64,000 bases of DNA, from positions 68,554,926-68,618,925 of the forward strand of contig CM049309.1 in assembly GCA_026874595.1 (NCBI GenBank). Reading direction: 5' to 3'. The notes under the pieces were generated by a model. That model was not told the DNA's origin, ran no database searches, and saw only the letters and a list, made by a program, of their open reading frames with translations. Positions within the stretch are counted from its first letter, which is position 1; each line of letters begins with the position of its first letter. Of the stretch, positions 37,031-61,604 are shown piece after piece. A program made the translations under genes and the position numbers. This DNA comes from Sipunculus nudus. Taxonomy: Eukaryota > Annelida > Sipuncula > Golfingiida > Sipunculidae.

Positions 37031-37573
37031 CTTCACTATAGTGCAGCGGTTAACGGCAAAATACAGAAGAATTGTTCAGATTGTGATAAAAGTACCAAAT
37101 TTTGTGGAGATGAAGTTTGGATAATACATTAAAATTTTTTTATTAGTTCCACCAAATCTTCTCAGTGTAACGGGGGTGGATCCTATGTTAAATTTGGGAT
37201 ACTCAAATTTATATGAAAAATACACGGAAGATCATCATAGTTACATTACATCTTATACATTCCTTATAGATAGGGTAATATTTTAGATTATTTGGTTCTA
37301 TTTAATTAACATCATCATGAGAAATGTAAAATTACCTTTGTAATCTCATTAATGTAAACATTTATAATTAAAAGATGACTATTTGCCATTCAACGACATG
37401 TAGTTAACTGAAGTTAATTTATTGTTAAATATGACATAAATCCATAAATCTTCTGTTTTAAAGTAAGGTTTAATCACTATTCTCAATTCACATCTCGTCG
37501 ATGTCTCCTTTGATGAATATAGGAGACGGTGGGGGAGGGCAATGAGAAGGGGGGGGGGGGGGTTACTACTTAC

Positions 37574-37723
37574 GTAGTATGGGTTCACTGTATAAACATT
37601 ACTTATTTCATCATACAATGTGTATGTTGCTTCGTGCTTAAAAATCATGTACAGTTTTATTGTTCTTAGTGCAAAATATCTGTTGTTAGTATTAATGAGC
37701 TTATGGACATTTCCATATGAGCA
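37574..37723 (-). CDS. 150-bp splice-bounded exon inside composite copy A
   Basis: Acceptor GGTTTATTTCAG and donor TAC|GTAAGT enclose exactly 50 codons in phase 0-0, containing NRYFALRTIKLYMIFKHEAT. It differs from the copy-B exon at four bases (two silent, two changing residues), so there is no sign of purifying selection between the copies. Family not recognised. It may be a captured host exon or part of the element's own gene. Confidence 0.4.
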
Positions 37724-37826
37724 CTGAAATAAACCCCTGAATTTCCAGGGGCGGATCATATTTAATTATGAGGGGCGGATCATATTTAATTATCGTGGTA
37801 CATTCTTTTAAAATGTTATGTACAAC

Positions 37827-40545
37827 TTAACAGCGTTTTAAAGTTTTATTTCTACAAACAAATCTTGAAAACCAACAAACTCTATCCATTCGCGTATACC
37901 TTCCCTTTTCAATTATCAAATCATGACATAAACATCTCAATCTGGCTAGCGCTTGTTTATGCTTGGTATTAGTCACACACAGATATTTCTCCATTAATTG
38001 ATAGCATGGATTTAAAAGTACCATATAAATTTAATTTAGTATTTACTTCTACATCACAAGACCAGTTTTGTTCTACCATATCAATAATTGTTTCCTTAAT
38101 TTTAGCCAAAAATATTCTAATGTCTCATACTTCTTGAGTCATCCACACATACCCAATACCTGCGCTGCATATTTTGCTTCTTATATGAGTAACCCATGTT
38201 TGTTTTCCATCCATATCTAGAGTAAACAGCATGTTATATATACGCTTTGGATATCTATTATTACCATAATGTACTGGTTTTGTCCAGTATTTTACACATC
38301 TGAATAACTGACCGACATACATGGGTGCCTTCCAAACTCTCTCAATGATGCTGCGTTCGGACCTGAAGAGCTAATTTTTAGAGTGTACTTGCAAAGTTTA
38401 TATTGCACCTTTTCATTTATTTTACATCTTTTATAGCCCCACAGTTCTGAACCATATAATAATACCGGATTAACCATACAATTAAATAGATAAAATAGCT
38501 GGCTCACTTATAAACAACTATATTTCCTATAAAAGTTTTTTTATGAGAGTCACTGCTCTTTCAGCCTGCATTGCTTGCAGTTTCTTTGTTTTATACCATG
38601 ACAATGTACTTGTAAATATTACTCCTAAGTGTCTATTGTCTTTTACCGTTTCAATTTGAGTATTTTTGATAGTGCCATTTCTGTAATCTTTTTAATGAAC
38701 CATGAGTCTAAAAAAACATAATTTTTGTCTTTCCTAAATTAACTTTTAAGCCATAATTGAAAGAAAAAAGAGTTTCCCTGTTATCCCAGTTTTAACTGAA
38801 ACATACCACAATAAATCATGTTGTAAACTATCAAAAGCAGTTGAAAAATCAATAAAAGTGTAATAAACCCTTCTTTTTTTTTTTGTTAAATATTTCTGCA
38901 CACACCCCATTAAAGAAAATGTATGGTCTACTGTTGAATAACCTTTACTATAGCCAGCTTGTGCTTCACATAAGAATCCAGCTTGATCAACATAATTTTG
39001 AATTTCTGTTTGCCAATATTTTTGTAAATAGTTTACCCACGGTATTAAGCAGTGAAATACCTCTATATAATTTTTTAGCATCTATGGTGGAAGCCTTTTT
39101 GTGAATTGGTACAATAAATGCTTCACTTCAAGAGGCTGGGAAAATCCATTTCCTAATACACTATTATATAATTGTAATATATGAGAACATATGTGACATA
39201 TGTATCTTTCAATATATCTATACCGTTATCCCGTAAGGCCATGTGGCCTTTCCTCTTTTCATTTCATTTATGGCTTTCTGTACTTCACAAGGTGTTATGA
39301 GTCCATCAAGCACTGTATCATTTTTTTAAATAGTCCAGAGTATGATTCTTAAACTATTGATTAATTTCATGTGTTGATGAATTCAAAAGTTCTTTAAAAT
39401 GTTTGTACCAACGTACCAGTTCTACTGTTGTAACAATTTTCTTTTTATTTAAAAATCTCATGTTTTTCCACATGGAATCAGTGTCTTTCGCACCTATCAC
39501 CTTTTGCATCCCCGGGGCTTGGATGATTGCCTTCTTTTCTTCACATAATTTTTTCAACATCTGTTTTGTTTGTTAATAATTAAGCTAGTCGCCATCTGAT
39601 ATTGTACATCTGCACTTATTCAAGCTATAATGTTTTATTTTTACAAAATTCACATTCTATGTCCCACCATTTTGGTTGCTTTAGTTTCATGTTGTCTAGG
39701 CAGTTTGGTTTATTTTTGTAGGATATATTTTGATAAATACTAACCAATGCCTCACTTGCTTTGTCCGGATATGTTTCTAAGGTTTCATTAAATGTGTTGA
39801 AAAGTAACACACATTCTATTTGTTCTAATGATTTTGAAATATTTGTTTTATCTTAATCAGTCTGATAAAATTTTACCCATTTTGTCAGTTCGCATATATG
39901 TTCTTTCGAAAGCGTTTTCCTTGGTCTGATAATATTAAATGAACAGCTTAAAGGAAAGAGATCGGACGGATCATCTGATGATACACAGGATCCATCTACC
40001 TTATGAAGTAGACAACTTATGACAATTACATAATCAACTACACTGCTACCAAAAGGAGTTAAACACGTAATTAAGTCTCCTGGTATATCTGGTATATCTG
40101 TTATATTTACACTAATAGCATTAAAATCACCAAGGAGAATTAAATTAAATTCATCAAACTCTGCCAAAGTATCTACCAATAAATTTTTTTCAGCCTGTTG
40201 ATACCATTTATTTCATCTTCATCCACATAGAATGATGAACCTGCTGGTGCAATATAGCAGCAAATTATGGCCAAATCTTTATCTTCATTAATTAAGGTAC
40301 CATCATACCCATTAATTTCTGTTGCACGTAAACTAACACCCCTCCTATCCCTGTACTCTTCCTGACTATTCCATAACCATAGGATACGTGGAATGCATCA
40401 GAAAATTCATCAACCTTGGTTGTCCATGTCTCATTGATACATACTATACTGTGATTATTTATCAACTCTTTAACTTCTAATGATTTAATTTTGTTCTTAA
40501 GTCCATGTGCATTCCATATTGCTATTTCTGCATTAGCATTTCTGC
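37827..40545 (-). pseudogene. Degenerate LINE open frame: AP endonuclease + deleted RT (copy A)
   Basis: Runs 40545 to 37827 on the minus strand with several frame breaks. The endonuclease start reads AIWNAHGLKN, followed by CINETW and later PSDLFPL. The last is the SDH catalytic motif with His replaced by Leu (codon at 39958-39960), so the nuclease is probably dead. The RT part shows the motif-A region FIDFSTAFDSLQHDLLW, then jumps directly to LKVNLGKTKVMFF: the segment with motif B and the YxDD box is missing. The C-terminal part has LLYGSELWGYKRCK and REFGRHPCMS, typical of LINE post-RT regions. It cannot encode an active protein. Confidence 0.8.
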
Positions 40546-40687
40546 TAGTGCTGGACTAGTTTACATAGGGGGAAATATTAAGTTTAAGTTGAAAAATATG
40601 ACAAACAGAAACAGGTTTTTATCCATATGCATGACGGAAAAAATCCTACTGATTCAAATAATATTAAATAAGATATATCTGAAATAA

Positions 40688-41345
40688 TGTGTGCAATAGA
40701 AAATCACGGACTGTAGTCTGTTGGCCATATTTAATTTTGAGCAAGTCTGTATTTCAATAGGTCAGAAGCCCTCATAGGCACCAATGATCCCTGTGAATTT
40801 GAGAAAGATCAAGCATATTGTTGCAAAAGAAAATCAACGATAGTGCTCTGGTGGCCATATTGGAATTCAGACAGGTCTGCAATTCGATAGAGATGGAGCC
40901 CTTATAGGTACCCACACTCTGTGTAAATGAGACAGATCAAGCTTGTTCTTGTCGAGATATCGTGCTTAAAAGAATATCGCCAATTGTGCTCTGGGAGCCA
41001 TATTGGAATTCTGACAGGTCTGTTTTTGGAAAGGGGTTGTGTCCGTATAGGCACCAATGATCCCTGAGAAAAGATAAAGACCAAGCATGTTCTTGTTGAG
41101 ATATCCGGTGCGAAAGAAAATCACCCATTATGATCTGGTGGCCATATTGGAATTCCGACAAGTCTGTAATTCAAAAGGACTGAAGCCCTCTTATGTATCG
41201 ATCATCCCTGTGAATTTGGGAAAGCTGAAGTATGTTGTTGTTGTTGAGTTATCACGTGGGAAAGAAAATCAGCGATTGGGCTGTGGTGGCCATATTGGAA
41301 TTCTGACAGGTCTGTAATTCAATAGGTCTAGAGCCCTCGTATGAA
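40688..41345 (-). repeat. Tandem array of about 140-bp units (composite copy A)
   Basis: Four to five units with GGTGGCCATATTGGAATTC and AGAAAATCA...GATT phrases. On the element strand it lies just upstream of the LINE frame, where LINE 5' UTR monomers or promoter repeats often sit. Confidence 0.8.
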
Positions 41346-41929
41346 CAGGAAAAGTAGATAGGCAGAGAAACATTTTACTGAATAAATAACTTGCTCTTTA
41401 GTAAGCTGATGGACAAACATAAATAGTTATAATTATATCCATGTAATAATTCATGCTGTCACCATACCCTTTATTAAGTGAATTATTCAATAAATGGTAA
41501 GCCTAAAGTTTGTTATAATTAACATGAAACATGTTTGCGATATATACATGTTAACAAAATTTAAAAGGCGTGCTAAATCGTGTTAGCTCTGCATAATACT
41601 TGATAAATAAATCCTGCTCCATTAATCTGGTCGTTTGTTAAACTGAATTAACTTCACTTGAAAGTAAAGTTTTAGCATCAGCAGACTTCTGTATTCCATG
41701 TACTGCAAAATAAAGGCCTTGATCGAACACTTTTAGATTAGACATTATTTATCAATTATTTAATTTATTCATCAATACCCCCAAAGTAATTGCAGGATCC
41801 ACCCCTGAAATACCATGAATATATCGTGGAACTATTTCTTAAACGAAAGCCAGTGTACAATACTACAACTGTACCAAATTTGGTACTTTTATCACAATTT
41901 GCACAATTTTTCCATTAGCCGCCACACTA

Positions 41930-42731
41930 TACTAGCGAGACAGTTCAGTCCGCTTCTATGTGCACCCCGTAACAAAATATATTCTGTTTTTATAGCCCGG
42001 TTATATGTAAGTTGAACGTGTGTAACTTTTTACACGGGAAGACCTGTTACAATACACGTGGGCGCGGTATGGCCCGATGGTCTTTTGTAGCCTGCAATAA
42101 AACCCTTTTGGAAGTATTTGTTATGCTTTAGAATTAAACATATATGTTATAAAATACGTTATAATAAATGCACACCCTTCTTAAGAATATATACACTACA
42201 TGGCCATAATATGTCCTGGAGACGCACACACGCATACATACATATATACACACATTTATGTAAATAAAGTTGCTATAATGTGAGTTGCATAGAGAATGCA
42301 TTGGAGTGTTTTACAGACAAGGGCTCCAATTTGCTATTAAAATGAGACGCGAGTGCAAAAATAGTATTGAAATTAAAAAAAAAATTATGTTTATTCATGG
42401 TGATTTTCAGCAGGACAGAGGTTAAGTCAGGTAACTTACTGTTATTGTAAATATTGTAATAAGTAAAGACGTCCATGTTATTTTGTATTTATATTGAGGT
42501 TCTGGTCAGTTTAACTCACTGCTCATTCATATGATAAAAAGCACTTTCAAATAGGAGTTTGGTTAAGCTAGTTAATTTCATATAAAAAATTTACCATATT
42601 GTTTCGTACTAGAGAAGGTCTTAAATTTTCATCTCGTGCAGTAAAGTGTTATCAACATCAATATCTATTTAATTTTGTATAAATAATGTACATGATTAAA
42701 CGAGTGTATGTCTCTACATCTTGAATTTGAT

Positions 42732-42737
<6 letters not shown>
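41930..42737. other. Unannotated AT-rich stretch
   Basis: Nothing recognised. Confidence 0.5.
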
Positions 42738-42801
<64 letters not shown>

Positions 42802-42985
42802 AATTAGTCTGTCTTTCAAGACTTGCAAGGGTACATTTCTTTTGTATCGTTAAATGGATTAAAGATTCAGATTTTAATTGATGAAGAGGGTATTACATGT
42901 ATAAAAAAAAGTCACACAATTAACAGAGAGGAAGGGGCAGACATATGGCACCTAGAAAAGTCTAGAATTTTATATATATATATAC

Positions 42986-43031
<46 letters not shown>
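42738..43031. repeat. Two (TA)n microsatellites
   Basis: Tracts at 42738-42799 and 42972-43031, separated by ordinary AT-rich DNA. Confidence 0.95.
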
Positions 43032-43035
<4 letters not shown>

Positions 43036-43360
43036 ACTACTTCATACAACTGAAAAAAGGTGTTCCTCTATTCCTCTATCGCATTTAGCAATAGGCCTAA
43101 ATGTTAACGCCATATGGAAGATTTAGAGCAAGATTTTCATAACTTGAGGATTATTAATTTGATTTCGTTATTTATTTTACATTTTACCAGTATAATTGAA
43201 TCAAGGTTTTCAGAAAGTCTTTTCCTTTTTTAACAAGTAACCCAGTTCGGCTGAGGCCGGAGAAGTAAGGTTAACCATGAGAGTTAACCGTGCGACCCTT
43301 TCACGATGATATCACACTCTGTTTGTGTTTGCTGACAACTTGTTGTAGTAGCGTGTGAAA

Positions 43361-43468
43361 ATGTCGGCGGCGCACAATACCTCATCACGTAAACATCTCA
43401 TCCCCTCGCTAATGAGGGGTCATGTACCTGACTATACCCATCAGCACTGGATTGCATTACCCACCGGT
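43361..43468 (+). CDS. Candidate first coding exon, plus-strand gene
   Basis: ATG at 43361 with adenine at -3, in a GC-richer segment. Encodes MSAAHNTSSRKHLIPSLMRG and DYTHQHWIALPTG. A donor GGT|GTAACG would end it in phase 0 at 43468, matching the phase-0 exon at 45440. If unspliced the frame runs to 43687, but that extension is Ser/Thr/Leu-rich and includes a C-run, so it looks like intron. Family not recognised. Confidence 0.35.
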
Positions 43469-43789
43469 GTAACGGCTTCAAGCTACACCTCTTTTCAGAC
43501 CTCCCCCCCCCCCGGCATTCTTAGATTATACTACACATGTTACTCCCCGGGGGTAGTTAATAGGCTGAGTTCATGCTACCCCCTTCCTGTTCAGATCAAC
43601 CCCCTCACCCCCTACCTAATACGATTATTTCTGGTATGTATACAATACACCTTTCCCCATTTCACTAGTGCCACCTACCAGCCATAAATGACACTAAGGG
43701 TTCGGGTCTGTTAAAGTAAGAGTCTGTGCGATCGGAATTGTGTTTCCAGGAACTGAGCTAATTGTATATATATTGTACCACAAGTCGGG

Positions 43790-43985
43790 AGAGAACGTGG
43801 CTAGTCGCAGTTCTGATCACAAGGTCGTACGACCAGAGGTGCCACCAATCGCGAGGTCGCACTAGCGCGGTGGCACGACCAATCGACTGGTCGTGCGATG
43901 ACCAAAGACTGGTGGTACAACCTTCTTGCGAGCTCCTACGACCTCAAAATTTAAAAATTCGGTCGCAACTGGATTTTGAACATGT
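43790..43985. repeat. Palindrome-rich GGTCGTGCGACC segment
   Basis: Dense self-complementary motifs: AAGGTCGTACGACC, GGTCGCAC, and GCACGACCAATCGACTGGTC followed by GTGC (9-bp arms). Probably a non-autonomous element or its terminus. Boundaries and target duplication not established. Confidence 0.45.
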
Positions 43986-45439
43986 TGCGAGATTTTACTT
44001 AATTATTTCACTAGAGGCCATAGTTTTGGAGCAGTCGTTTTAAAACTGATTTATTTAATGTTGCAATGATATTTCGAAACCAATCTTTAATTTTTAAATA
44101 GCCACCAGGGGCGCTGCAGCAAAAACTATAAAATGTCATTGTCGTGCCTTACCTTTAAAATTATGAACAGTGTCACTACTTATATATAGCAGCATTTGAA
44201 AGTAGGATCAATAGACGTATTTCCTTATAAATAGACGCCCGGCCTCATTCTGCGGTAATCATTGTTACCAATTTTTTTTAAATCCATGAATTTTTTACGT
44301 TTATTTTTTTAATTCACTTTTAAAACTAGAGGTATAGTTTCGGGAAACATTTCGATAGTTTTAAACGATCTTATTTAAAGTCTCGCAACGTATCACGTCA
44401 AACATGATCTTGCATAAAATTATGGAGATGTTCTATCTCTGACACAACCCCCTTGCTATCTCTTTAAAACTTTAACTACTGGTATATGTTTATTTCACCA
44501 CGATACCTTTTGTTTTTGTCAAGATTGGTGTCCAAGGCCAAGATCAAGGTAAAAAAAACCTCAAGGCGTGTCTTATACTTTCACAACTTGGTCAAGAAAT
44601 GTTGTATTTAAAAAAATGTTACTCATTTTATGCATTTCACCATAATATACATGAATTATCTGGCCTAGAACTAGTTTATTTCTGTACGTCCCTCTGTTTG
44701 TTAGTCCACCCCTTTACAAAATAAGCAAAGCTGCACAAACTTATTGTTTTTTTTCTGCTTCCTCTAGGGTTATTCATTTGACTATGTCTCATTTCAACAT
44801 CTGGCAAGCACTCGACCTATGGTCGTATAGTTTATTTATTCAATAAACTAAAGCGCATGCTCATTTTTTACAAACATGAGGCGTTCAAGGATTATATCAA
44901 TTTGAGAAACTCAGATGGAAAAACATTAAGATATAACAAACAAATATTCATTAAGAATTGGCATTAATAGAAAAATTTAAATCAATAAGATATCATAATT
45001 TAAACCTACATATGTAACAGTTACCAAATATAACAATTTATTTATTATTATTAATAATATTATTGTTATATTATCATTACTTAATTATCACTTTTAAGTA
45101 ATAGTATTTGTGTAAATTAGTAGATACTGTTTTTCACGTTGTTGTTTGTTTTTTGTTGTAAACTTCTATAAGTAAGTATAAAACATCAAAAGGAAACTGT
45201 ATTTTGGGTTTTCCAGTCGTAGGGTGTCGGAGATTATGAAGAGATTGATTTCAACGTACAGGCGAAACCTACACCCAAAAATCTGATTACGATTCAATTT
45301 ATAAAATTAAAACCGGCGGGGGGGGGGGGGGAGGAACTGTGACGGAGGTTATCTGAAACGCTACACCGGCCACACCTTATACATATACGTATACATGTAC
45401 CACGCCTTGTTTACGAAAATGCTTTGAGGACTATCCCAG
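43986..45439. other. Unannotated stretch
   Basis: AT-rich, with one diverged AAGGTCA-type paragraph near 44530 and a G-run at about 45317-45331. No exon seen. Confidence 0.45.
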
Positions 45440-45607
45440 AAAGCTTTGGAGCGTAAAAAAAAAAGACTCGAGAAAGTTCGGCTTGATCACCTGGACGTGC
45501 CGGGCCCCACTTTGAAGACCTCAGACAGTGCGGGGTGGGACTTCCAAAGTAAACACTGGGTCACTCCGGAGGTTCGTTTCTACAGCGATATATATAGACC
45601 GCCACAG
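45440..45607 (+). CDS. Internal exon of a plus-strand gene (56 codons)
   Basis: Acceptor GGACTATCCCAG and donor CAG|GTATTT enclose exactly 168 bp in phase 0-0. Encodes a basic start (LERKKKRLEKVRLDHL) and then SDSAGWDFQSKHWVTPEVRF and YSDIYRPPQ. Aromatic- and charge-balanced composition strongly suggests real coding sequence. Phase agrees with the candidate first exon at 43361-43468. No downstream exon was found before 50 kb. Family not recognised; I considered axonemal proteins because of the style but cannot support it. Confidence 0.5.
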
Positions 45608-45740
45608 GTATTTGCTTTTGTATTGCTCTCGTGGAACTCGTGTCTTACTCTCAGTAAAAGAAATACAGGTAGGATGATTTTTAATTCGTTATGAATTTCA
45701 TGATGTATAATGTAATACATTTTAACAGTTGTAACGGAGC

Positions 45741-46830
45741 ATATATATTTATTTATTTATTTCAATATATTTATACAGGGTAGCCTGTTCAGTAATACAG
45801 TCTGTTCTTCCACAGGGCCCTGTAACCTTAAACATGATATAAATACCTGGTACAAAGATTATAAAATATACAGTATGCATATGTAACACAATATATGAAT
45901 CATCAAAGATACATGTACATAAATATTATATACACGACAAATAAGTCAGTCATGATATGCTACAATACATTAAACGCTACAATAGGTAAAATTCACTTTA
46001 TACGTGAACAACATAGTCGTACATAAAATTTCGTAATACATTCAAAGGGTAATGTATGTAAGAAAATGAGTAAAATGCACAATAATCATAAAAACTCGTG
46101 TAGACGCGGTTATAAAAGAATCCGAATAATAAAGACGGGTATTGACGATGCATATTAGGAAATAACATTGTCTTTAGGTTGTAATACTAAGACTTTAAAA
46201 GAAACGCTTTGGTCTTATGTTTAAAAGTATTTAAAGATTTTATAGATCTGATCTCGTATGGTAAGGTATTCCATACCGAAGGGCCTCTGTATAAGAAGCT
46301 ATTTTTGAAGAATTCATTTTTCGGTTTTGGCAATGACAGAAGGCCACTTTCAGCGGATCTGGTAGAATGATCATGCGTATCACTGACCCATATGAACTGT
46401 TTTGGATTATGGATATTCATTTGATTGACATATTTATGCATCAGGATACATATGAAATATTCACAGCGTTTAGAGACTGTTAGCCATTGTAGCTGTTGTA
46501 TCAGAGTGGCACTTGGGATTTCATGATCATAGCAGCTGGTAACAATACGTGCTGCACGATTTTGAATTTTTTGCAGTTTTCTGTGGCAAATTGAGGATTT
46601 CGTTTTGCCCCATACACTTATGGCATAGTCGATATGTGGCTGGATCTTGGTATTATAGACTGTTATTAATGTATTTATGGATAGTACTTTACTAAGGCGG
46701 TGTAACAGTGCTAAGTTTGGTGACAACTTTTTACATAGGGTAGTTTCATGTGAGAACCTTGATAAATTAGAATCAATAGTTACACCTAATAGTTTGGTTT
46801 CCGATGATTCTTGGAAATATATATATATGC
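45741..46830 (-). mobile_element. 5'-truncated LINE with AAAT tail
   Basis: The minus-strand element holds only the last part of a LINE frame, a short 3' UTR with the phrase AACAGGCTACCCTGTATAAA, and an (AAATA)n tail at the low-coordinate end. The 5' end is cut in a TA tract, as usual for incomplete reverse transcription. It lies inside one unit of a duplicated AT-rich segment (see findings). Confidence 0.8.
46187..46815 (-). pseudogene. C-terminal LINE reverse transcriptase remnant
   Basis: Open from 46815 to 46187. Begins ETKLLGVTIDSNLSRF, the thumb-region motif of LINE RTs. Continues with IQPHIDYAISVWG and LQKIQNRAARIVT, then HDHSTRSA and GPSVWNTLPYEIR, the usual C-terminal signature of jockey/CR1-like LINEs. 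Fingers, palm and endonuclease are absent. No frame breaks in what remains, so the insertion may be fairly recent. Confidence 0.9.
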
Positions 46831-46910
46831 CCTAAAAAAGTGTATTTTGAACAATTGTTACAGCTTTTTAAACGTAATTCAAGGTATTACATGTTAACAG
46901 TTGTAACTGA

Positions 46911-46954
<44 letters not shown>

Positions 46955-46957
<3 letters not shown>

Positions 46958-47795
46958 TGGTGGGAGTCGGTTCCTTTTTCATAGTCGATCATCGGTTTGA
47001 GCAAACCGACTGATGATCGATTATTCATCGATCCTGTGTTTCCCCGGCAGGTATTCTCCTCTCGCGCACGAGTGTAACGATCCTTCCACGTATAAAGACA
47101 ATCAGACTAATTTAAAGATCAAATTTAACGACGGGTAATATCTTTCATTGTGGAAATTAAGAGCGTCTAAGAATGTTAGGCCTATAGATGGGCTGTTTTT
47201 CTATCACATGAAGTCAGATTTTACGGGCCCAGGTGCGCTTGGGGCAGATCATCCAAAAAAAATTGCAGACTAGTCCAAAATAAAATTCCAGCTGAAATCC
47301 AAATATTCGACCGGCCGGGTTAGCCCCAACAAAGATTTTTTTTAAGGACGGCCTAAACAACGGCACCTGACATCCGTTGAATAGAATGTTTCTAAGAGAA
47401 TCTCGCAAAATTGGCATAGACCTTGAGAATTTATGGAGCATTTCAACGCCTTCCCGCCCAATTTTGCAGTCTACATCTCGTAAGAAAACTCTCCGCTAAT
47501 TCTGCAGCTCCCTGCGAGTTCACAAATAATAAGTTTAATAAGTCCTCCGTTCTGGCATCTATATACCGTGTCATACTCAGTTTTATATGGAAGTTATTTG
47601 GAAACCCAGACTCATTATATAAAGCGCGGAATGTGGTAAAAAAATGAAAAATAAATATTGCCTATAACATAAAGGCATTCTGGAAAGAATACAATCATTA
47701 TTATGATGTAATCGATAGTTGCCTTTGGTAATCGAGCGCTTGAAAGTGGCAGGAAACCGACTGACTTTCGATAAAACTGGATGATCGGCCCACCA

Positions 47796-47798
<3 letters not shown>
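46955..47798. mobile_element. hAT-like non-autonomous element, copy 2 (844 bp)
   Basis: Ends TAGTGGTGGGAGTCGG and CCACCACTA, inserted in a TA tract so that the flanks read ATATATAT on both sides. Interior is more diverged than copies 1 and 3. Confidence 0.8.

Positions 47799-47850
<52 letters not shown>
47799..47850. repeat. (TA)n microsatellite
   Basis: TA tract continuing the one split by the hAT-like insertion. Confidence 0.95.
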
Positions 47851-47853
<3 letters not shown>

Positions 47854-49009: not shown

Positions 49010-49011
49010 CA

Positions 49012-49015
<4 letters not shown>

Positions 49016-49091: not shown

Positions 49092-49092
<1 letters not shown>

Positions 49093-49477: not shown

Positions 49478-50396
49478 TAGTGGTGGGAGTCGGTTTCTTT
49501 TTCATAATCGATCATCGGTTTAGGCAAACCGATCGATGATCGATTATTAATCGGTTCAGACAAATTTAAAGAAATATGCAATTATATTTGAAACTTTACT
49601 CTCTTAACCCAACCCGTATGTCTTAGTAATTCTTCCTTATGAAAAGAAGTCTTTTCCTTTTTATAATAGGAATATTTTCCTATTATTACTAAGCTATGCT
49701 ATTAAAAGTTTCATTTTTATTAATTATAATAATCAAGAATTAAACCACAGTCCAGGACATCTACTTGCTGGCCCTCAAGAATACTTCGGCGAATCATTTA
49801 AACTTTACCACCAGCAAGGACTTTCATTTTATAACAATTATGACGACTGCCGACATGCATACTGGTTTCAAAGGCCCGCCAGGAAAATTACAGACCTCAA
49901 TAATTGTTGGTAAAAATTTAAAAAAATTAATTGAAAGCTTAATATATATAATTACTTATGCGGCAGCGGCACCTGACATCAGTTGAAGTGATTATTTCTA
50001 AGAGAATCTCACAAAATTGGCATAGACCTGGAGAATTATGGAGCATTTTAACGCCATATCGCCCATATTTTGCAATGAACATCTCGTTAGAATACTCTCC
50101 GTTAATTCTGCAGCTCCCTGCCAGCTCATAGAGGTTTAAAAATCCTCCGTTCTCTCATCTACCGTGTCATACTCAGTTAGATACGGAGATTATTTTGGAA
50201 CATAGCCTTATTATATGAAGCGCGGAATGTTGTAAAATATGGAAGAATAATTTTGTCTATAACATAAAGACATTCCGAAAAAAAAAAAACAATCATGAGT
50301 ATGATGTAATTGATAGTTGCCTTTGGTAATCGAGCGCTTGAAAGTGGCAGCAAATCGACTGACTTTCGAAAAAACTCGATGATCTGCCCACCACTA
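49478..50396. mobile_element. hAT-like non-autonomous element, copy 3 (919 bp)
   Basis: Begins TAGTGGTGGGAGTCGG and ends CCACCACTA with a perfect 8-bp target duplication GCTCTGGC on each side (49470-49477 and 50397-50404). This copy fixes the family boundaries and superfamily type. Its right end lies only about 100 bp ahead of the TATA box of the CUB gene. Confidence 0.88.
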
Positions 50397-50501: not shown

Positions 50502-50523
50502 CGTCTCTGTCTATTTTTCGTAG

Positions 50524-50596: not shown

Positions 50597-51012
50597 GTAG
50601 AAGGTGAAAATTAATGTTAATTATAGTATTTTTTTGCGGCAATGGTTTCTCTGGTGCGTCATGTGAAATATACATTCAGGCGCAAGCAGACGACACGCGC
50701 GGGTGAAATGTACATGATGACTTCACTCATTCACAGATGACATGTGCCGGTTAAAACTTGCGCCAGTTTTATATATTTTTTTTTATTTCGTCTGTTTTGG
50801 TTTGGCTGTGACTCTGATTTTATTGCCGAACAATGAATCTTATCATAAGTACTTTTTTAGTTATACTTTTTTAACTTTTAGGTTTTAAGCTCCACTTTTA
50901 AAGGTTTACTTTTTAATTTCCACTTTTAAACTTTACTTTACCTTTTTTTAAGTTTTACTATTTATATTTTACTTTTTATATTTTACACTTTGAGTTATAT
51001 TTTAACTTTCAG

Positions 51013-51109
51013 ACTTGGTCCATGATGCATGCATCCCAATATTTTATTGTCTTCCTCCTTGCCGTAGTGTTGAGTCTTGGTGGAACGCAGCTTGTGCCAG
51101 CGAAAACAC
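51013..51109 (+). CDS. Signal-peptide exon of a secreted CUB-domain protein
   Basis: Acceptor TTTTAACTTTCAG at 51012, ATG at 51022 after 9 nt of 5' UTR, donor CAC|GTGAGT after 51109. Coding part 51022-51109 encodes 29 residues: a short N-terminus, a hydrophobic core FIVFLLAVVLSLGG and a likely cleavage region around TQLVPAKT. It ends with 1 nt (phase 1), joining in frame with the CUB exon at 51727. A second ATG follows the first directly. The protein should enter the secretory pathway. Confidence 0.75.
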
Positions 51110-51451
51110 GTGAGTGTTGTTATTCTATTGAAATTAATTTTATATTAAATAAAATTAATATGTTTAATAAATATATATATATGTGTGTGTGTGCTCATCT
51201 CCAAGACCGCTATCGGTGGTGCATGTATAAAAAAAATATCGATGCAAGTAACAGTATACTTTTAAAACTCCATTCATTGCATCTAATGTTAAGTTTTAAT
51301 ATATAGTTCACGACATTTTCAGAGATATTAGCTTTTTAGTCTCATCGGATTGGTCATACTCTTGGGAATTTTTTTCTTCTGTTATATTATAACACACGTA
51401 CAGTTGCTTCAAACTTTATCTAATCATAAATATCTCAGGATATCATATCAA

Positions 51452-51452
<1 letters not shown>

Positions 51453-51526
<74 letters not shown>
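51453..51526. repeat. (TC)n(TA)n compound microsatellite
   Basis: In the intron between the signal-peptide and CUB exons. Confidence 0.97.
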
Positions 51527-51529
<3 letters not shown>

Positions 51530-51726
51530 CACTTCATTGTGCATGTGACCAATGACCAATGAGTCATTCTAATTATCAAATTTAGCCAATGCTTGTTTCC
51601 TGCATTAAAGCTTCATGAAGCTAACTTTTTTTTAATAAAGCAGTCATATGTGCATGAAACTTTTAATTATGCATGAAAAATTACACCATTATTACAAATA
51701 ACTATTTCGATTGTCTTTTTTTTCAG

Positions 51727-52218
51727 CAACTCTGTACTTTCCACATATGTGCCAGAGACTGAATTTTTTAGGATTTTACGGTATAAATTTGGTTTCCCAG
51801 TCGACGGATACATACGCAGCCAACTATCAGTGTATTGTCACCGTGACTCTCTCTAGAAATTACTACGCCAACCTGACATTCACGAGATTTGAGCTTGAAC
51901 CTCCATCAAATGGCGTATGTAATGACTACTTGCAAATATACCAGGGCAGGAGTGCCGATGGGCCTCAGATAACGGGTCAAGTCTGCGGTTCCGTTCCTCC
52001 CTTCCACAATTTCATAGCCAATACCTCGGAGATCACAGTCATATTCAAAACAAACCATGTCAATGAACGTCAAGGGTTTCGTCTGGAGATAAGGCGTGCG
52101 CAGAAATTGCACAATAGCGGAGGATCTTCCGGTTTAAGCGGTGGTTCGTCCGGAGGTTCCGGTGTGACCATGCCTTACGGCGGTGGAGGCGTTTATAATA
52201 CTGCAGCCAGCCCACTAG
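51727..52218 (+). CDS. CUB-domain exon of the secreted protein
   Basis: Acceptor with a long T-run (TTTTTTTTTCAG) and canonical donor CTAG|GTGAGT; 492 bp, phase 1-1. It encodes one CUB domain with the family's four cysteines, at HMCQ, YQCIV, GVCNDYLQIYQG and GQVCGS, the aromatic/acid core motif NDYLQIYQG, and a closing VIFKTN...GFRLEIRR strand. CUB domains bind proteins or calcium outside cells. It is followed by a Gly/Ser-rich linker (SGGSSGLSGGSSGGSG) and PYGGGGVYNTAASPLG. A single CUB exon with equal phases is the classic unit of exon shuffling. Confidence 0.9.
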
Positions 52219-52670
52219 GTGAGTTCATGAAGCATAATTTTCATGATACACTGAACCCTCGAATCACTTTAACTGATCCATGCATCCACGTGCTTTATTT
52301 TTATATATTCTTACATTTTATAAATACAAAATCATTTTTACAAGGATTTTTGTTTATGTTTGAAGAGTACTATAAATATCACATTCTGTAGAACTCATGG
52401 AAACGAGGTGGCGAATCTCGTTAACAGGCCATTCCCCAAAATGGCTAAAAACTTTTTTTGTCTCGCATACGGACAGTCATGTGTGAACAAAACTTTTAAT
52501 CGGCCGGAAAAAAGGAATTATTGACAATTATCAGAACTCTTTGGATAAAAGTGCCTGTCGATGTCATGAATATGCACCAGGTCTACGACATGGACTTGAT
52601 TTAATCGGTTTTCCTTTAATTGTTGCCAATGAAAAATAAGTAGATAATCCCTTGAACGTTTTTTATTGTG

Positions 52671-52820
52671 CAGGCGCGGATCCAGGATTATTTGCACGTG
52701 GGGGGGGGGGGGGGGGGTAGTGTCAACGCTAGTGTAGATAAACATAGGGCGATTATTATTCCGAGCAGTCTAAATTTGGTCGAGATTCCCCCCCCCCCCC
52801 CCCCCCCGGATCCGCGCCTG
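52671..52820. mobile_element. GCGGATCC element (150 bp) with perfect 13-bp TIRs
   Basis: Ends CAGGCGCGGATCC and its exact reverse complement, flanked by TTGTG on both sides. A run of about 18 G follows the left end and a similar C-run precedes the right end, so the element can fold nearly end to end. Lies in the last intron of the CUB gene. Confidence 0.8.
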
Positions 52821-53435
52821 TTGTGTCAACCGAAATGAACGCTTTTCTCGAATAGCCTTTGCATATCAAACTCGCATGTGGTTGTTTTCTGTTGGTCCCC
52901 TTTAATTTCACCTATACGGGGTTTAGTCCATTATACATACTAATATATTCAATTGTCCATTTTAATAAAGAAACATCCTATAATGTCCACATAAGAAATG
53001 AAACCAACGAATCATATAATGCCAATATTTTGTGGTAGTAAATTTACAAGCGAGTGGCAATGCTCTGAGCTAATAAACAGTTACCGGTCTGAAAGGTCAA
53101 CTATCGGTAAGCATACCTTATTCATGGCAACGTACACTGAGGAATTCATTTAGCTGTAAACCCCCGACAATTGAAACCATTCACACCTATGACTTTGTAT
53201 GCAATTTAATAAGAAGAAAGAAACAAACACTCAACAAAGTACGCATATATACACAACCACTTAATACACTGTAAAATACCACCTCATAGTGAACATGGGA
53301 TGCACTGTTCGCATGTCCGACGTGTCAAACTGCGACTTAACACAAATGTCACAGTAGGTGTTCAGTAGTAACAGATGAGAGGAGGTACAGGTATTTAATA
53401 TTTACTCAGATTCGAGTGGGCTTTATGTATTTCAG

Positions 53436-53512
53436 AGGCGACGCCTTGGACAAAGTGGACAACTGTTACTCTTTTATTGGCATCTAGGCTGTCTGACTCT
53501 CTCAGCAGATGA
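53436..53512 (+). CDS. Candidate terminal exon of the CUB-domain gene
   Basis: Acceptor TTATGTATTTCAG at 53435. The 2 leading nucleotides complete the codon left by the CUB exon, then ATPWTKWTTVTLLLASRLSD leads to a TGA at 53510-53512. An AATAAA lies about 240 bp downstream. With this exon the whole protein would be 218 residues. Support is phase, acceptor and poly(A) signal only; a different last exon is possible. The tail is mildly hydrophobic but not a convincing GPI signal or membrane segment. Confidence 0.4.
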
Positions 53513-53752
53513 AACGGCGACCACTGTTTCCATGGCATTTCGGGTCAAAGGCTTGTGAAGTCATGACACCCTGTTCTAGCTTCTGGTGGCACGGTTGGTA
53601 AGGCCACAAAAATGAATAAATTGTTCCATGAACTCTGGGACCATACATATTTGGAGCCAGTGATTTGTTTTCTTTTATATGTAACTGGCATAGAAAAATA
53701 TAGTTCACATGTTGCAGCTTGTAGGAAGGATAATGTTGGCCAATGTCAAAAT

Positions 53753-53758
53753 AATAAA
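53753..53758 (+). terminator. Candidate poly(A) signal of the CUB-domain gene
   Basis: AATAAA downstream of the candidate stop at 53512, followed by T-rich DNA. Confidence 0.35.
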
Positions 53759-53775
53759 GTATTGCATATATGAAG

Positions 53776-55685
53776 AAAACAAATTTATTAAGTTTACAAT
53801 TATATCTTTATAAATGAAAATTTACATGATTGATACTCAGCAATTAGCAATGTTAATACCTAGGACTTATTGCTTATTATTCAAAGTCTCCCTAAATGGA
53901 TATGTAAAAACAGGAGTGACAATTCCGTATAATTTTCTTGGTGTGCCTAAATGATTCATGAGGCACCCAGGGACCGCTTCAGAGAGGAGCTACCAAATCA
54001 TATCTTTACTTGAGCGAAAACGTTTACTTACTTACAACGCCAATGACGAGTACATATTTCCACTCAGTTTATAATTGACAAGAGGCGTTGGTGTTTTGCC
54101 AGTGTTAGCTGGTTTAGATCAAGCGGTGAGTGATTGGATACGTGGCCCCTCCCTGTTGCCATGGAGTCATGTGCATTTATCAATCTTCGGTCAGGAATTC
54201 AGTTTCATGCGTGATTTATGTAACCTTACAACTCCACCCTAACAGTATATGGCTACGCCTGCCTTTTTATAGATTGTTTTTTTATGGAGGTTAACACTTT
54301 CTTTGTGATTTTTCCTTCGTTACTTTGAATATAAACTACTTAATTATTATAGCCCCGTACGAAAACTTTTAATTTTCTTTTTTTAAAGAATTCCTTTGGT
54401 GGAGGTAGCCGCCTCCATTTTTTTATGCTTGATTAAATATAAGTGATATGTACATCTGCAGAATTCTATTGCGGTTTCGGACTACGTGACACGTGGTAAT
54501 TCCGGTGTCAACCACACTCGGTGTATACACTGAATGCGGGTCCTGGGTGTGTGTTATCCACCTAAGAATCTCCTTTATGATTGAGACAGAGCGCTCACCC
54601 TGGGTTGGGACCGACAGTGTGAAGGTTAAGTAAACCTATTCCACGTGCGTTTGTGTGAATGAAGGATTTCATCTAGTCCCAGGCTTTGCCCTGATTTGAT
54701 TGGGTGGTACACATGTGATATCATGGACTGAATTTTATCAACAACTCAGATCTAGTAATGCATATTGTTTTTATTCTCTGCTAAAATTTTGGGACCGACA
54801 CTGGCAGAAACACTGTGTTTTTACTGAGATCTAGAATTTTTGGTCACAGGGGATTTCCCAGTGTGTGACGTCACTGCCGTGATTACATTGCTCATAGATG
54901 TGACAATAGTGAACAAATCACACAACCTCATGTTTTTAGTAGGAAAATATATGCAAAAAATGTTTTCCTCCAGGAATTGGGCTCATTATATGTACTATCT
55001 ATATTAATATTTTTTTTTTATAACCAGTTATGTTATATGATAATATAATGAGATTTGGAATACGTTTGCTAGACCTGAAATCTCACTGCCTCGGCCGAGA
55101 TACGAAATCATGACCTCCTTTGAGCCCGGAGCTCTATCCCAAGACGATGGACGTCGGTCGTTACGCGTGCCTTAAAGAATAAGAAACCGGCACACATTTG
55201 TATTATTCATGAGCAAGTTTTCATTTAAAATCGATATATTATCCCGGTTTTCGTTCCTCATGATTTTACATCTATCTTTCGCTCATGAATTTTCCAGTTA
55301 CTCGTACATAAATAAATAGGACCACTTGCAAAATGCTCTAAATAATGTTATCTGTTCATACTTTGTTTGTATTGAAGAAAGGGATACGAAACAAGTATTG
55401 TGAGATTTTTCTCACTAGTTATTTCTAGACTGCTGTCTTCCGGTGACATGTTTGTCTTTGTATGTGTATGTGTGTGTTTAAATGCTGTTTTTTTATTGCG
55501 TCCTATTCATCAGAAGATTTTGTGGCCATGTGGTTTTACATATCTACTTTAACATTTCATCTGTCAGACACCGCATGATGTCAATTTATACAAATATGGG
55601 TGCATTGTTAATGATTGTATTGATAGGCCAGATTAGTGTAATAACTAACCTAACCGGCAAGTATGGTAACACGAATTCTGTGATA

Positions 55686-55687
<2 letters not shown>
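53776..55687. other. Intergenic stretch with a possible tRNA-like relic
   Basis: No exon supported. On the minus strand at about 55070-55155, GGATAGAGCTCCGGGCTCAA followed by GGAGGTCATGATTTCG resembles the tRNA-derived head of a SINE; boxes are too degraded for a firm call. Confidence 0.35.
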
Positions 55688-55733
<46 letters not shown>

Positions 55734-55746
55734 TCATCATCATCAT
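55688..55746. repeat. (TA)n then (TCA)n microsatellite
   Basis: TA tract followed by about five ATC/TCA units. Confidence 0.95.
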
Positions 55747-56639
55747 AAATCATGAGTGATATATTAATAATTAAAATATCAATTGCATACTGTATTGATG
55801 TTTTATAATAAAAATGTTAAATGTTACTTGACACCTTGTACACTGTTCTTAATTTGTTGATATTTGATGTAGATTGCTATTATCGGGAACTTAAAACTGC
55901 GTCATTTTTTTTAATTGAACAACGTTAAAATATCATATAAAACATTAAGCTGACAACGTACGCCGAAAGTTCTGATTCAGTAGCAAAGGAATGTGTAAAT
56001 TCAGATCCATCAATCAATACTTGGACAGCACTAATTGCTGTACCGGTAAGTCAAACCAGCAGTCAGCTGCGTGGACATATACAGCTATCTTGTAAACTTA
56101 AACCGTTAGAGAGTTCAGTGTATCAAGTATAAATCTATATATACTTTGTGGGGTGTTTATGAATTTAAAATGACATCACCTCATGATCTACATGCAGCTA
56201 CGCTGTCACTTAAAACCTCACCTCAACCAGACCATTCGTTAGATAGTTTTGTGTACATTCTCTCAACACCTTATACCTGTGCGAGAAAATTCCCTTATAA
56301 CTGATATATTGGTAATCACTCCCCCCCCCCCCCCCTCCACATGTTTGTTGAATTTCTGACCGCATGAATACAAGAACACGATACACGGGTTACTGGGAAA
56401 CTTGAACGCGACACGGGACAAGTAACCATGGAGATGGAATTATACTTTGGTTTGTGAGTTCACATGTTTATTTTGTAGCCTAATGTTAAGATTACCACAA
56501 TATCCATGCAGTACGATGGATGACCAGGGCTGTACATTTCCCAGTATAACTTGTGTCTCGACTCAAGTGGGCATTTAAGTCAAATATGAATGCCTACTGA
56601 GACGTGTATACATGTTTAATTTTGTTACTTAACAAAATA
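55747..56639. other. Unannotated stretch
   Basis: Nothing recognised apart from a C-run at about 56320-56336. Confidence 0.5.
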
Positions 56640-57236
56640 GTGCGGCGGCTAATGGGAAAATTGTGCAAATTGTGATAAAAGTACCAAATTTGGTACAGTT
56701 GTAGTATTGTACACTGGCTTTCGTTTAAGAAATAGTTCCATGAAATATTCATGGTATTTCAGGGGTGAATCTTGCAATTACTTTGGGGGAACCGATAAAT
56801 AAATTAAATAATTGATAAATAATGTCTAATCTAAAAGTGTTCGATCAAGGCCTTTATTTTGCAGTACATGGAATACAGAAGTCTGCTGATGCTAAAACTT
56901 TACGTTCAAGTGAAGTTAATTCAGTTTAACAAGCGACCAGATTAATGGAGCAGGATGTATTTATTTATCAAGTATTGTGCAGAACTAACGCGATTTAACA
57001 CGCCTTTTTAATTTTTTTAACATGTATTTATATCGCAAACATGTTCCATGTTAATTATAACAAACGTAGGCTTACCATTAATTGAATAATTCACTTAATA
57101 AAGGGTATGGTGACAGCATGAATTATTACATGGATATAATTATAACTATTTATTTTTGTCAATCAGCCTACTAGAGCGCAAGTTATTTATTCAGTAAAAT
57201 GTTCGGAACTCTGCCTATCTACTTTTCCTGTTTATA

Positions 57237-57880
57237 TGAGGGCTCTAGACCTATTGAATTACAACCCTGTCAGAATTCTAATACGGCCAACACAGCCCAA
57301 TCGCTGATTTTCTTTCGCACGTGATAACTCAGAAACAACAACATCCTTCAGCTTTCCAAAATTCACAGGGATGATCGGTACATACGAGGGCTTCAGACCT
57401 ATTGAATTACAGATTTGTCGAAATTTCAATATGGCCACCAGATCATAATGGGTGATTTTCTTTCGCACCGGATATCTCAACAAGAACATGCTTGATCTTT
57501 ATAATGTTCTCAGGGATCATTGGTGCCTATACGGACATAATCCCTTTCCAAAAACAGACCTTTCAGAATTCCAATATAGCTCCCAGAGCACAATTGGCGA
57601 AATTCTTTTAAGCACGATATCTCGACAAGAACAAGCTTGATCTATCTCATTTACAGAGAGACGATTGGTACCTATAAGGGCTCCATCTCTATCGAATTGT
57701 AGACCTGTCGGAATTTCAATATGGCCACCAGAGCACTATCGTTGATTTTCTTTCGCAACAATATGCTTGATCTTTCTCAAATTCACAGGGATCATTGGTG
57801 CCTATGAGGGCTTCTGACCTATTGAAATAAAGACTTGCTCAAAATCAAATATGGCCAACAGACTACAGTCCGTGATTTTA
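57237..57880 (+). repeat. Tandem array of about 140-bp units (composite copy B)
   Basis: Same units as in copy A, with ATATGGCCACCAGA...GATTTTCTTTCGCA and ACAGGGATCATTGGTGCCTA, ending about 150 bp ahead of the endonuclease frame. Confidence 0.8.
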
Positions 57881-58033
57881 TATTGCACGCATTATTTCAG
57901 ACATCTTCTTTAATATTATTTGAACCAGTAGGATTTTTTCCCTCATGCATATGGATAAAAACCTGTTTCTGTTTGACATATTTTTCAACTTAAACTTAAT
58001 TTTACCCGTATGTAAACTAGTCCAGCACTAGCA

Positions 58034-60665
58034 GAAATGCTCATGCAGAAATAGCAACATGGAATGCACATGGACTTAAGAACTAAATTAAATCAGTAGA
58101 AGTTAAAGAGTTGATAAATAATCACAGTATTGTATGTATCACTGAGACATGGGCAACCAAGGATGATGAATTTTCTGATGCATTCCAGGTATACTATGGT
58201 TATGGAATACTCTGGAAGAGTACAGGGAGAGCAGGCGTCTTAGTTTACTCGCAACAGAAATTAAAGGGTATGATGATACCTTAATTAATGAAGATAAAGC
58301 TTTGGACATAGTTTGCTGCTATATTGCACCAGCAGGTTAATTCTAAACAGGCTGAAAAATTTATTGGTAGATACTTCAGCAGAATTTGATGAATTTAATT
58401 TAATTCTCCTTGGTGATTTTAATGCTAGAACTGTCAATATAACAGATATACCAGATATACCAGGAGACTTAATTACGTGTTTAACTCCTTTTGGTTGCAG
58501 TGTAGTTGATTATGTAATTGTCAGTAGTTGTCTACTTCATAAGGTAGATGGATCCTGTGTATTATCAGATGATCCGTCCGATCACTTTCCTTTAAGCTTT
58601 TCACTTATTATTATCAGACCAAGGAAAGAGCTTTCGAAAGAACACATATGCGAACTGACAAAATGGGTAAAATTTTATCAGACTGATGAAGATAAAACAA
58701 ATATTTCAAAATCATTAGAACAAAAAGAATGTGTGTTACTTTTCAACACATTTAATAAAACCTTAGAAACATATCCGGACAAAGCAAGTGAGGCATTGGT
58801 TAGTATTTATCAAAATATATCCTACAAAAATACACAAAACTGCCTTGACAACATGAAACTAAAGCAACCAAAATGGTGGGACATAGAATGTGAACTTTGG
58901 AAAAATGAAAAATTATAGCTTTGAATAAGTGTAGATGTGCCATATCAGATGGCGACTTACTAAATTATTAACAAACAAAACAAGAGTTTAAAAAATCATG
59001 TGAATGAAAGGAAAACAATCATCCAAGCCTCAGAGGTGCAAAAGGTGATAGGTGTAAAGGACACTGATTCCATGTGGAAAAACATGAGAATTTTTAAATA
59101 AAAAGAAAATTGTTACAACAGTAGAACTGGTACGTTGGTACAAACATTTAGGAACTTTTGAATTCATCAACATATGAAATTAATCAAAAGTTTAAGAATC
59201 ATACTCTGGAATATTTAAAAAAAAAATGATACAGTGCTTGATGGACTCATAACACCTTGTGAAGTATAGAAAGCCATAAATGAAATGAAAAGAGGAAAGG
59301 CCAAAGGGCCTGACGGGATAACGGTAGATATATGGAAAGATACATAGTCACATATCGTCTCATATATTACAATTATATAATAGTGTATTAGGAAATGGAT
59401 TTTCCCAGCTTCTTGGAGCGAAGCATTTATTGTACCAATTCACAAAAAGGCTTCCACCATAGATGCTAAAAAAATTATATAGAGGTATTTCACTACTTAA
59501 TACCGTGGGTAAACTATTTACAAAAATATTGGCAAACAGAATTCAAAATTATGTTGATCAAGCTGGATTCCTATGTGAAGCCCAAGTAAAGGTTATTCAA
59601 CAGTAGACCATACATTTTTTTAATGGGGTGTGTGCAGAAATATTTAACAAAAAAGAAAAGAAGGTTTTATTACACTTTTATTAATTTTTCAACTGCTTTT
59701 GATAGTGTACAACATGATTTATTGTGGTATGTTTCAGTTAAAACTGGGATAAAAGGGAAACTTTTTTTTCTGTCAATTATGGCTTAAAAGTTAATTTAGG
59801 AAAGACAAAAGTTATGTTTTTTTAGACACGTGGGTTCATTAAAAAGATTAGAGAAATGGCACTATCAAAAATACTCAAATTGAAACGGTGAATGACTGTA
59901 GATACTTAGGGGTAATATTTACAGGTACATGGTCATGGTATAAAACAAAGAAAGCATAGCAATGCAGGCTGAAAGAGCAGTGACTCTCATAAAAAAACTT
60001 TTATAAGAAATATAGTTGTTAATCAGTGAGCCAGCTATTTTATCTATTTGATTCTATGGTTAAACCGTTATTATTATATGGTTCAGAACTGTGGGTGTAT
60101 GAAAGATGTAAAATAATTGAAAAGGTGCAATATAAACTTTGCAAGTACACTCTAAAAATTAGCTCTTCAGCTCCGAACGCAGCATCATTGAGAGAGTTTG
60201 GAAGGCACCCATGTATGTCGGTCAGTTATTCAGATGTGTAAAATACTGGACAAAACTAGTACATTATGGCAATAATAGATATCCAAAACGTTTATATAAC
60301 ATGCTGTTTACTCTAGATATGAATGGAAAACAAACATGGGTTACTCATATAAGAAGCAAAATATACAGCGCAGGTTTTGGGTATGTGTGGATGAATCAAG
60401 AAGTAGGAGACAGAAGGTTTTTGGCTAACAGTAAGGAAACAATTATTGATATGGTAGAACAAAACTGGTCTTGTGATGAAGAAGTAAATATTAAATTAAA
60501 TGTATATGGTACTTTTAAATCCATGCTATCAATTAATGGAGAAATATTTACTGTGTGTGACTAATACCAAGCATAAACAAGCGCTAGCCAGATTGATATG
60601 TTCATGTCATGAGTTGATAATTGAAAAGGGAAGGTATACGCAAATTGATTGAGTTTGTTGGTTTT
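58034..60665 (+). pseudogene. Degenerate LINE open frame: AP endonuclease + deleted RT (copy B)
   Basis: Endonuclease start AEIATWNAHGLKN, then CITETW, and the catalytic DDPSDHFPLSF with its His kept (unlike copy A). The longest clean frame is 58313-58918. The RT start MKRGKAKGPDGI and RGISLLNTVGKLFTKILANR are present but broken by frameshifts. As in copy A, the sequence passes from the motif-A region (HDLLW, about 59720) straight to VNLGKTKVMFF (about 59790), omitting motif B and the YxDD box. The post-RT part (60026-60564) is the best preserved, with LLLYGSELWVYERCK and REFGRHPCMS. Inactive. Confidence 0.82.
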
Positions 60666-60718
60666 CAAGCTTGGTTTAGTTGTACATTTACGATAACATT
60701 TTAAAAGAATGTACCCTG

Positions 60719-60766
60719 ATAATTAAATATGATCCGCCCCTCATAATTAAATATGATCCGCCCCTT
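60719..60766 (+). repeat. Two 24-bp units at the LINE 3' side (copy B)
   Basis: AATTAAATATGATCCGCCCC occurs twice in tandem just after the LINE frame, and likewise in copy A (about 37745-37795 on the other strand). It may be the short-repeat tail of the LINE. Confidence 0.6.
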
Positions 60767-60788
60767 GAAATTCAAGGTTTTATTTCAG

Positions 60789-60938
60789 TGCTCATATGGA
60801 AATGTCCATAAGCTCATTGATACAAACAACAAATATTTCGCACTAAGAACAATAAAACTGTACATGATTTTTAAGCACGAAGCAACATACACATTGTATG
60901 ATGAAATAAGTAATGTTTATACAGTGAACCCATACTAC
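60789..60938 (+). CDS. 150-bp splice-bounded exon inside composite copy B
   Basis: Acceptor GGTTTTATTTCAG (60788) and canonical donor TAC|GTAAGT enclose 50 codons, phase 0-0: CSYGNVHKLIDTNNKYFAL through FKHEATYTLYDEISNV to NPYY. Reading on through the donor adds a C-run-coded polyproline stretch, and in copy A the frame shifts there; both support the donor as the real boundary. Not a recognised domain, and not a usual LINE or DDE transposase segment. Confidence 0.4.
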
Positions 60939-61604
60939 GTAAGTAGTAACCCCCCCCCCCCCCCTTCTCATTGCCCTCCCCCACCGTCTCCTATATTCAT
61001 CAAAGGAGACATTGACGAGATATTAATTGAGGATAGTGATTAAACCTTACTTTAAAACAGAAGATTTATGGATTTATGTCATATTTAACAATTAAATTAA
61101 TTTCAGTTAACTACATGTCGTTGAATGGCAAATAGTCATCTTTTAATTATAAATGTTCACATTAATGAGATCACAAAGGTAATTTTACATTTTTCATGAT
61201 GATTTTAATTAAATAGAACCAAATATTCCCCTATCTATAAGGAATGTATAAGATGTAATGTAACTATGATGATCTTCCGTGTATTTTTCATATAAATTTG
61301 AGTACCCCAAATTTAACATAGGATCCGCCCCCGTTACACTGAGAAGATTTGGTGGAACTAATAAAAAAAAGTTAATGTATTATCCAAACTTCATCTCCAC
61401 TAAATTTGGTACTTTTATCACAATCTGAACAATTCTTCTGTATTTTGCCGTTAACCGCTGCACTAAAAGGGTGGAAGCCAGATGAATATATAGTACAAAA
61501 AAAGTGAAAGCAGATTGAGTGTTCTGTATATTTTATTGAAACAAACAATTCACATGCACCCTAACTGAACGTCCTGCGTCCCCATTGCATACACTTGGAT
61601 TTAT

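Follow-up and report, generated by a model that had tools for sequence, protein, structure and literature searches.

A transposon-like element with terminal inverted repeats carries a LINE remnant in two inverted copies in the Sipunculus nudus genome

The movement of retrotransposon cargo by DNA transposons is, to our knowledge, already established as a general phenomenon. The composite Tx1 of Xenopus laevis, reportedly described by Garrett, Knutzon, and Carroll in 1989, is said to be a DNA element with terminal inverted repeats (TIRs) and internal tandem repeats, inside which lies a long interspersed nuclear element (LINE) with an endonuclease and a reverse transcriptase (RT). Internal tandem repeats are also summarized for the Tetris/DAIBAM foldback elements of Drosophila virilis, which were probably moved by an autonomous partner according to the abstract (PMC4079207). 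The oyster Pearl/HINE elements (non-autonomous Helentrons) are summarized as containing short central arrays of 140- to 180-bp repeats and as using TT for insertion with no target-site duplication (PMC7492417). Here, a stretch of 64,000 nucleotides of the Sipunculus nudus genome (the window; GenBank assembly GCA_026874595.1, contig CM049309.1, positions 68,554,926 to 68,618,925) was analyzed, in which two inverted units of ~4.8 kb (units A and B) carry the remnant of a LINE between imperfect TIRs. The explanation that we favor, with a probability of about 0.82, is that a non-autonomous TIR transposon received a LINE insertion, after which the composite transposed.

Ends, flanks, and internal order of the two units

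Comparison of the window with itself (blastn) produced one long inverted match, between positions 37039 to 41930 and 56637 to 61465, with 4,919 columns and 92.6% identity. The match corresponds to unit A (37041 to 41927, plus strand) and unit B (56640 to 61463, minus strand), which are bounded by TIRs and flanked on both sides by TA; in unit A, the flanks can also be read as TATA. A first-pass annotation of the window had described two inverted units with common ends, TA on each side, and different outside flanks, and all three observations were reproduced. Global alignment of the units with four flanking bases contained 4,546 matches, 263 substitutions (122 transitions and 141 transversions), and 30 gaps, including a single gap in the flanking bases, and the divergence between units was ~5.5% of aligned bases.

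Each end of the duplicated unit coincides exactly with a TIR, as in TIR DNA transposons. They are imperfect and ~145 bp long, with arms that could be aligned to about position 145. The left TIR of unit A (37041 to 37186, plus strand) has the outer sequence GTGCAGCGGTTAACGG, the inner sequence ATTGTGATAAAAGTACCAAATTT, and an inner edge near GGGGTGGATCCT, and the right end of unit A (TIR at 41791 to 41927, minus strand) reads GTGTGGCGGCTAATGG when reverse-complemented. The ends of unit B are GTGCAGCGGTTAACGG and GTGCGGCGGCTAATGG, with TIRs matching the left (61320 to 61463, minus strand) and right (56640 to 56780, plus strand) TIRs of unit A; the inner limits of all TIRs other than the left one of unit A are approximate. 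With three mismatches allowed, the inner motif ATTGTGATAAAAGTACCAAATTT and its following bases matched the window four times, once per unit end, against an expectation of 0 in 100 shuffles. Identity between arms was 70.7% over 123 columns in unit A (E = 9e-13) and 72.9% over 96 columns in unit B (E = 1e-11). In a control, 6 of 2,000 random 160-bp pairs reached the score of the unit A arms; examined afterwards, five of these were found to pair a part of one unit with a part of the other, and the remaining pair (3183/46847) falls at TA/AT microsatellites listed by Tandem Repeats Finder (TRF).

Identity between the units passes the TIR ends by 2 to 3 bp, through the TA, and then ends, on all four sides. 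The best match between the different 300-bp flanks had an E value of 0.14. At E ≤ 0.01, these flanks had no match elsewhere in the window, and at E ≤ 1e-3, the window contained no additional piece of unit A. With unrelated outside flanks, the units occupy independent insertion sites, as copies of a TIR transposon do. The first-pass annotation had proposed that identity continuing past the TIRs into flanking DNA would indicate a plain segmental duplication. That origin is ruled out because the outside flanks are unrelated and identity ends at the TIRs. A modified form, in which the units are what remains of the two arms of a segmental inverted duplication after loss or replacement of its outer parts, with TIRs that are coincidental, would account for the inverted orientation and the spacing of ~14.7 kb, but it is very unlikely, given that identity stops so close to the TIR ends on every side and that, at ~5.5% internal divergence, recent common flanks should still be detectable.

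From the left of unit A, the internal order is TIR, a stretch without recognized content, two 24-bp repeats, the LINE on the minus strand, a tandem array with a period of ~144 bp, a further stretch, and TIR, and the order in unit B is the same. The array was found at 40671 to 41343 in unit A (plus strand, five register copies) and at 57234 to 57888 in unit B (minus strand, limits from the self-comparison; TRF limits, 57409 to 57753), with a period of 144 to 145 bp and TRF copy numbers of 3.5 and 2.4, respectively. The 24-bp repeats (37747 to 37793 in unit A, plus strand; 60714 to 60772 in unit B, minus strand) look like putative subterminal repeats of the transposon and not part of the LINE, because they have the motif GGGGYGGATC in common with the inner edges of the TIRs; a candidate role as the LINE 3' tail was dropped for the same reason. 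Exact GGGGYGGATC occurred seven times in the window, and each occurrence was at an inner TIR edge or in a 24-bp repeat of unit A or B. When one mismatch was tolerated, it occurred 15 times versus 2.35 expected, and 7 of these 15 occurrences were outside the units. The internal parts listed by the first-pass annotation were recovered by TRF and Pfam searches as far as the array, the endonuclease and RT remnants, and the 24-bp repeats were concerned. The "exon" that it had placed beside the 24-bp repeats was not: the frame in unit A (37379 to 37765, minus strand, 128 amino acids) had no Pfam match at E ≤ 1, and its counterpart in unit B (60747 to 61043, plus strand) had a single Pfam match far below the cutoff.

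The LINE remnant and its divergence relative to the carrier

The LINE remnant occupies approximately 37870 to 40560 in unit A (minus strand) and, with the same organization, approximately 58030 to 60660 in unit B (plus strand). It consists of parts of an endonuclease, the first half of the RT, and a putative C-terminal part, distributed over several frames. In unit A, the Pfam family Exo_endo_phos was matched at E = 8.3e-5 (model positions 3 to 80 of 225) and E = 0.044, and RVT_1 was matched at E = 1.5e-5 (model positions 24 to 90 of 205). In unit B, Exo_endo_phos was matched at E = 0.0015 (model positions 21 to 82) and E = 1.3e-5 (147 to 225), and RVT_1 was matched at E = 0.054 and 0.018 (7 to 41 and 57 to 96 of 205). 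Among these endonuclease and RT matches, the one to Exo_endo_phos at E = 1.3e-5 in unit B was alone in passing the Pfam cutoff. The cargo therefore contains both an AP (apurinic/apyrimidinic)-type endonuclease and a reverse transcriptase, the combination by which LINEs are recognized. Sequence searches of the PDB with a single endonuclease piece and a single RT piece produced nothing convincing; the RT piece matched an R2 protein at E = 0.8.

The later part of RVT_1 was matched by no piece, and the RT active-site motif YxDD, sought as [YFM]xDD in the three LINE-sense frames, was absent from the LINE segment of both copies. Over the whole units, the same search gave 0 occurrences in unit A and 1 in unit B, at 61192, outside the LINE. 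The C-terminal part, named by its likeness to LINE sequences, is presumably of LINE origin, and in a frame reading based on the same likeness, both copies seem to continue almost directly after the initial RT motifs with the region that follows the active site. The endonuclease reading undergoes an equal change of frame in the two copies, at corresponding positions (pieces 40292 to 40555 and 40173 to 40397 in unit A; 58087 to 58284 and 58179 to 58340 in unit B), where there is no gap between the copies. We read the second frame, which had no Pfam match, as the coding one. These lesions are common to both copies, which suggests that decay of the LINE preceded their separation.

Identity between the copies was 95.5% to the left of the LINE (763/799), 94.35% in the LINE (2,487/2,636), 94.0% in the array segment (733/780), and 95.4% to the right of the array (557/584). 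Divergence did not differ among these four regions (P = 0.41) or between the LINE and the rest (P = 0.40); the LINE and the transposon parts are therefore of one age as a unit. Across the five open LINE pieces of unit A, differences between copies at codon positions 1, 2, and 3 were 20/435, 22/434, and 16/436 (P = 0.59), the pattern of DNA without coding selection, and nothing indicates that the LINE was retained as a gene after the split. A working or selected LINE is ruled out by the missing [YFM]xDD and the lack of codon-position bias. The LINE is dead cargo carried along with the TIR element.

Even divergence also bears on the possibility that the LINE-bearing TIR element was copied without cut-and-paste, for example, through gene conversion between neighboring TIR elements or through template switching between them. 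The copies are near each other, the TIRs alone could provide the homology for such an event, and the first 600 columns of the units are somewhat more alike (97.0, 96.8, and 98.0%) than most of the rest. Uniform divergence over the four regions argues against this route, which we consider improbable.

In the favored sequence of events, a LINE would have inserted, antisense to the plus strand of unit A, into a non-autonomous DNA transposon with ~145-bp imperfect TIRs and TA target sites, which may have been Tc1/mariner-like in its choice of TA. We infer that the transposon, with its array, predated the entry of the LINE. The LINE would then have decayed, with loss of the middle of the RT including the catalytic motif, and a transposase supplied in trans, which we infer to be the mover, would have transposed the composite as one unit, giving the two inverted copies. 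Of the two origins suggested by the first-pass annotation, the capture of a LINE by a DNA-transposon-like element that then moved as a unit agrees with the TIR-coincident ends, the unrelated flanks, the equal divergence, the lack of codon bias, and the missing YxDD. The other, an undescribed chimera representing a novel type of element, found no support, given that the LINE has the appearance of a dead passenger and that none of the open pieces scanned matched a transposase.

Several observations weigh against capture followed by transposition. The copies found number two, both within the 64-kb window, where neither a LINE-free copy nor an empty site was seen. Pfam scans of the 63 open pieces of at least 50 amino acids that overlap the units, together with one shorter piece, yielded no match to a transposase family. 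If TA is counted into the TIR, the remaining flank duplication is TA in unit A and AAA in unit B. Most LINE-sense pieces beyond the RT half are without Pfam support. Among candidate target-site duplications that would mark the ends of the LINE, the best, CATATTTAATT, which occurs in unit A at 37757 and 37781 (in both 24-bp repeats) and at 40726 (upstream of the LINE endonuclease), has no exact occurrence in unit B, and CTGAAATAA, a 9-bp match present in both copies, is within chance by our estimate. CATATTTAATT is possibly a LINE target duplication and possibly a chance match.

The distribution of CATATTTAATT is relevant to a further explanation, that the LINE belongs to a site-specific, still active lineage targeting this transposon family, as described for Tx1L in Xenopus, and that both copies are dead members of it. 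The location of the LINE within a TIR element and adjoining a tandem array would fit such targeting, as would the fact that the candidate duplication in unit A occurs within the 24-bp repeats and again next to the 5' side of the LINE. However, one insertion common to both copies does not demonstrate repeated targeting, and the candidate duplication is inexact in unit B; we regard this explanation as highly unlikely.

Superfamily assignment and other features of the window

Tc1/mariner elements have TA as their target. The TA flanks of both copies resemble those of this superfamily and point to it as a candidate, not a proven, assignment; the lack of a transposase match in either unit is a difference from it. 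The target-site duplication is probably TA; the alternative, with two copies to compare, is that TA belongs to the TIR. Other Pfam matches in open pieces of the units were weak and all below the cutoff. If TA is included, the unit end TAGTG fits a hAT-like start. In contrast to hAT elements, the units have no 8-bp duplication (1/8 positions in unit A and 2/8 in unit B, with TA counted in the TIR), and membership in hAT is ruled out on that ground; a hAT-like repeat in the same window (49478 to 50396) has 8/8. The long TIRs, together with the TA that flanks each end of each unit, rule out membership among Helitrons/Helentrons (HINE).

The hAT-like repeat is 0.84 to 0.92 kb long and has three copies in the window (23718 to 24617, 46955 to 47798, and 49478 to 50396), with ends TAGTGGTGGG...CCCACCACTA and longer matches that are ~83 to 86% alike. 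From its sequence, it is a predicted hAT-like non-autonomous element. Its 8-bp flanking repeats agree at 6/8 positions in the first copy and 8/8 in the third; the 8/8 of the second copy falls in an AT repeat and is uninformative. The second copy sits in an AT microsatellite, and its middle (~47031 to 47357) could not be aligned with the others.

The window looks eukaryotic, with 36% G+C, many AT microsatellites, and a CUB-domain frame at 51702 to 52391; this frame and the overall nature of the sequence also give it an animal-like aspect. Tandem arrays were also listed by TRF at 13096 to 13875 (period of 65 bp, 11.8 copies) and 17523 to 18661 (period of 37 bp, 30.9 copies, also readable as 74 bp). 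Beside unit A, positions 36930 to 37038 (minus strand) contain what we take to be a likeness to the head of a tRNA-derived short interspersed nuclear element (GGTTTCGAAACC, AGCGAAGCGGTTGG), and ARAGORN and Rfam made no call there; tRNA and Rfam scans of the whole window (gathering threshold) found nothing. An open piece of 214 amino acids (46187 to 46831, minus strand) presumably resembles the C-terminal part of a jockey/CR1-type LINE and had no Pfam match at E ≤ 1.

Comparison with known systems

A literature search covering titles and the starts of abstracts, with most subscription journals outside its range, found no description of this element. No relative was found in a viral collection searched with the TIR pattern and an endonuclease piece or in bacterial and archaeal genomes searched with the TIR pattern and the LINE C-terminal piece; the host is not expected in either collection.

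If the favored explanation is true, the locus records a DNA transposon moving a dead retrotransposon, in two near copies that can be compared base by base, and several kilobases of cargo would be no bar to the movement of a non-autonomous TIR element. Composites of this kind could mislead repeat annotation, as each unit may be filed as a LINE. A more far-reaching idea is a lasting partnership, in which a LINE lineage targets the TIR transposon, at the array or the 24-bp motif, and propagates through its own retrotransposition as well as by riding along with the transposon. This would be a second, independent Tx1-like composite in another animal lineage, and we hold it to be a distant prospect.

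Among the described elements, the Pearl/HINE elements, as summarized, resemble the units in having an array period of 140 to 180 bp within a non-autonomous element and differ from them in that the units possess long TIRs and are flanked by TA at each end. Tetris/DAIBAM likewise appears to be a non-autonomous DNA element that has TIRs and contains tandem repeats; these repeats are within the TIRs, and its abstract does not mention LINE cargo. The composite Tx1 is like the units in that its TIR element contains tandem repeats as well as a LINE. Compared by description only, Tx1 is reported to have short TIRs, TTAA as its target, and a LINE that is intact and targets the element, whereas the units described here have ~145-bp TIRs, TA flanks, and a dead LINE.

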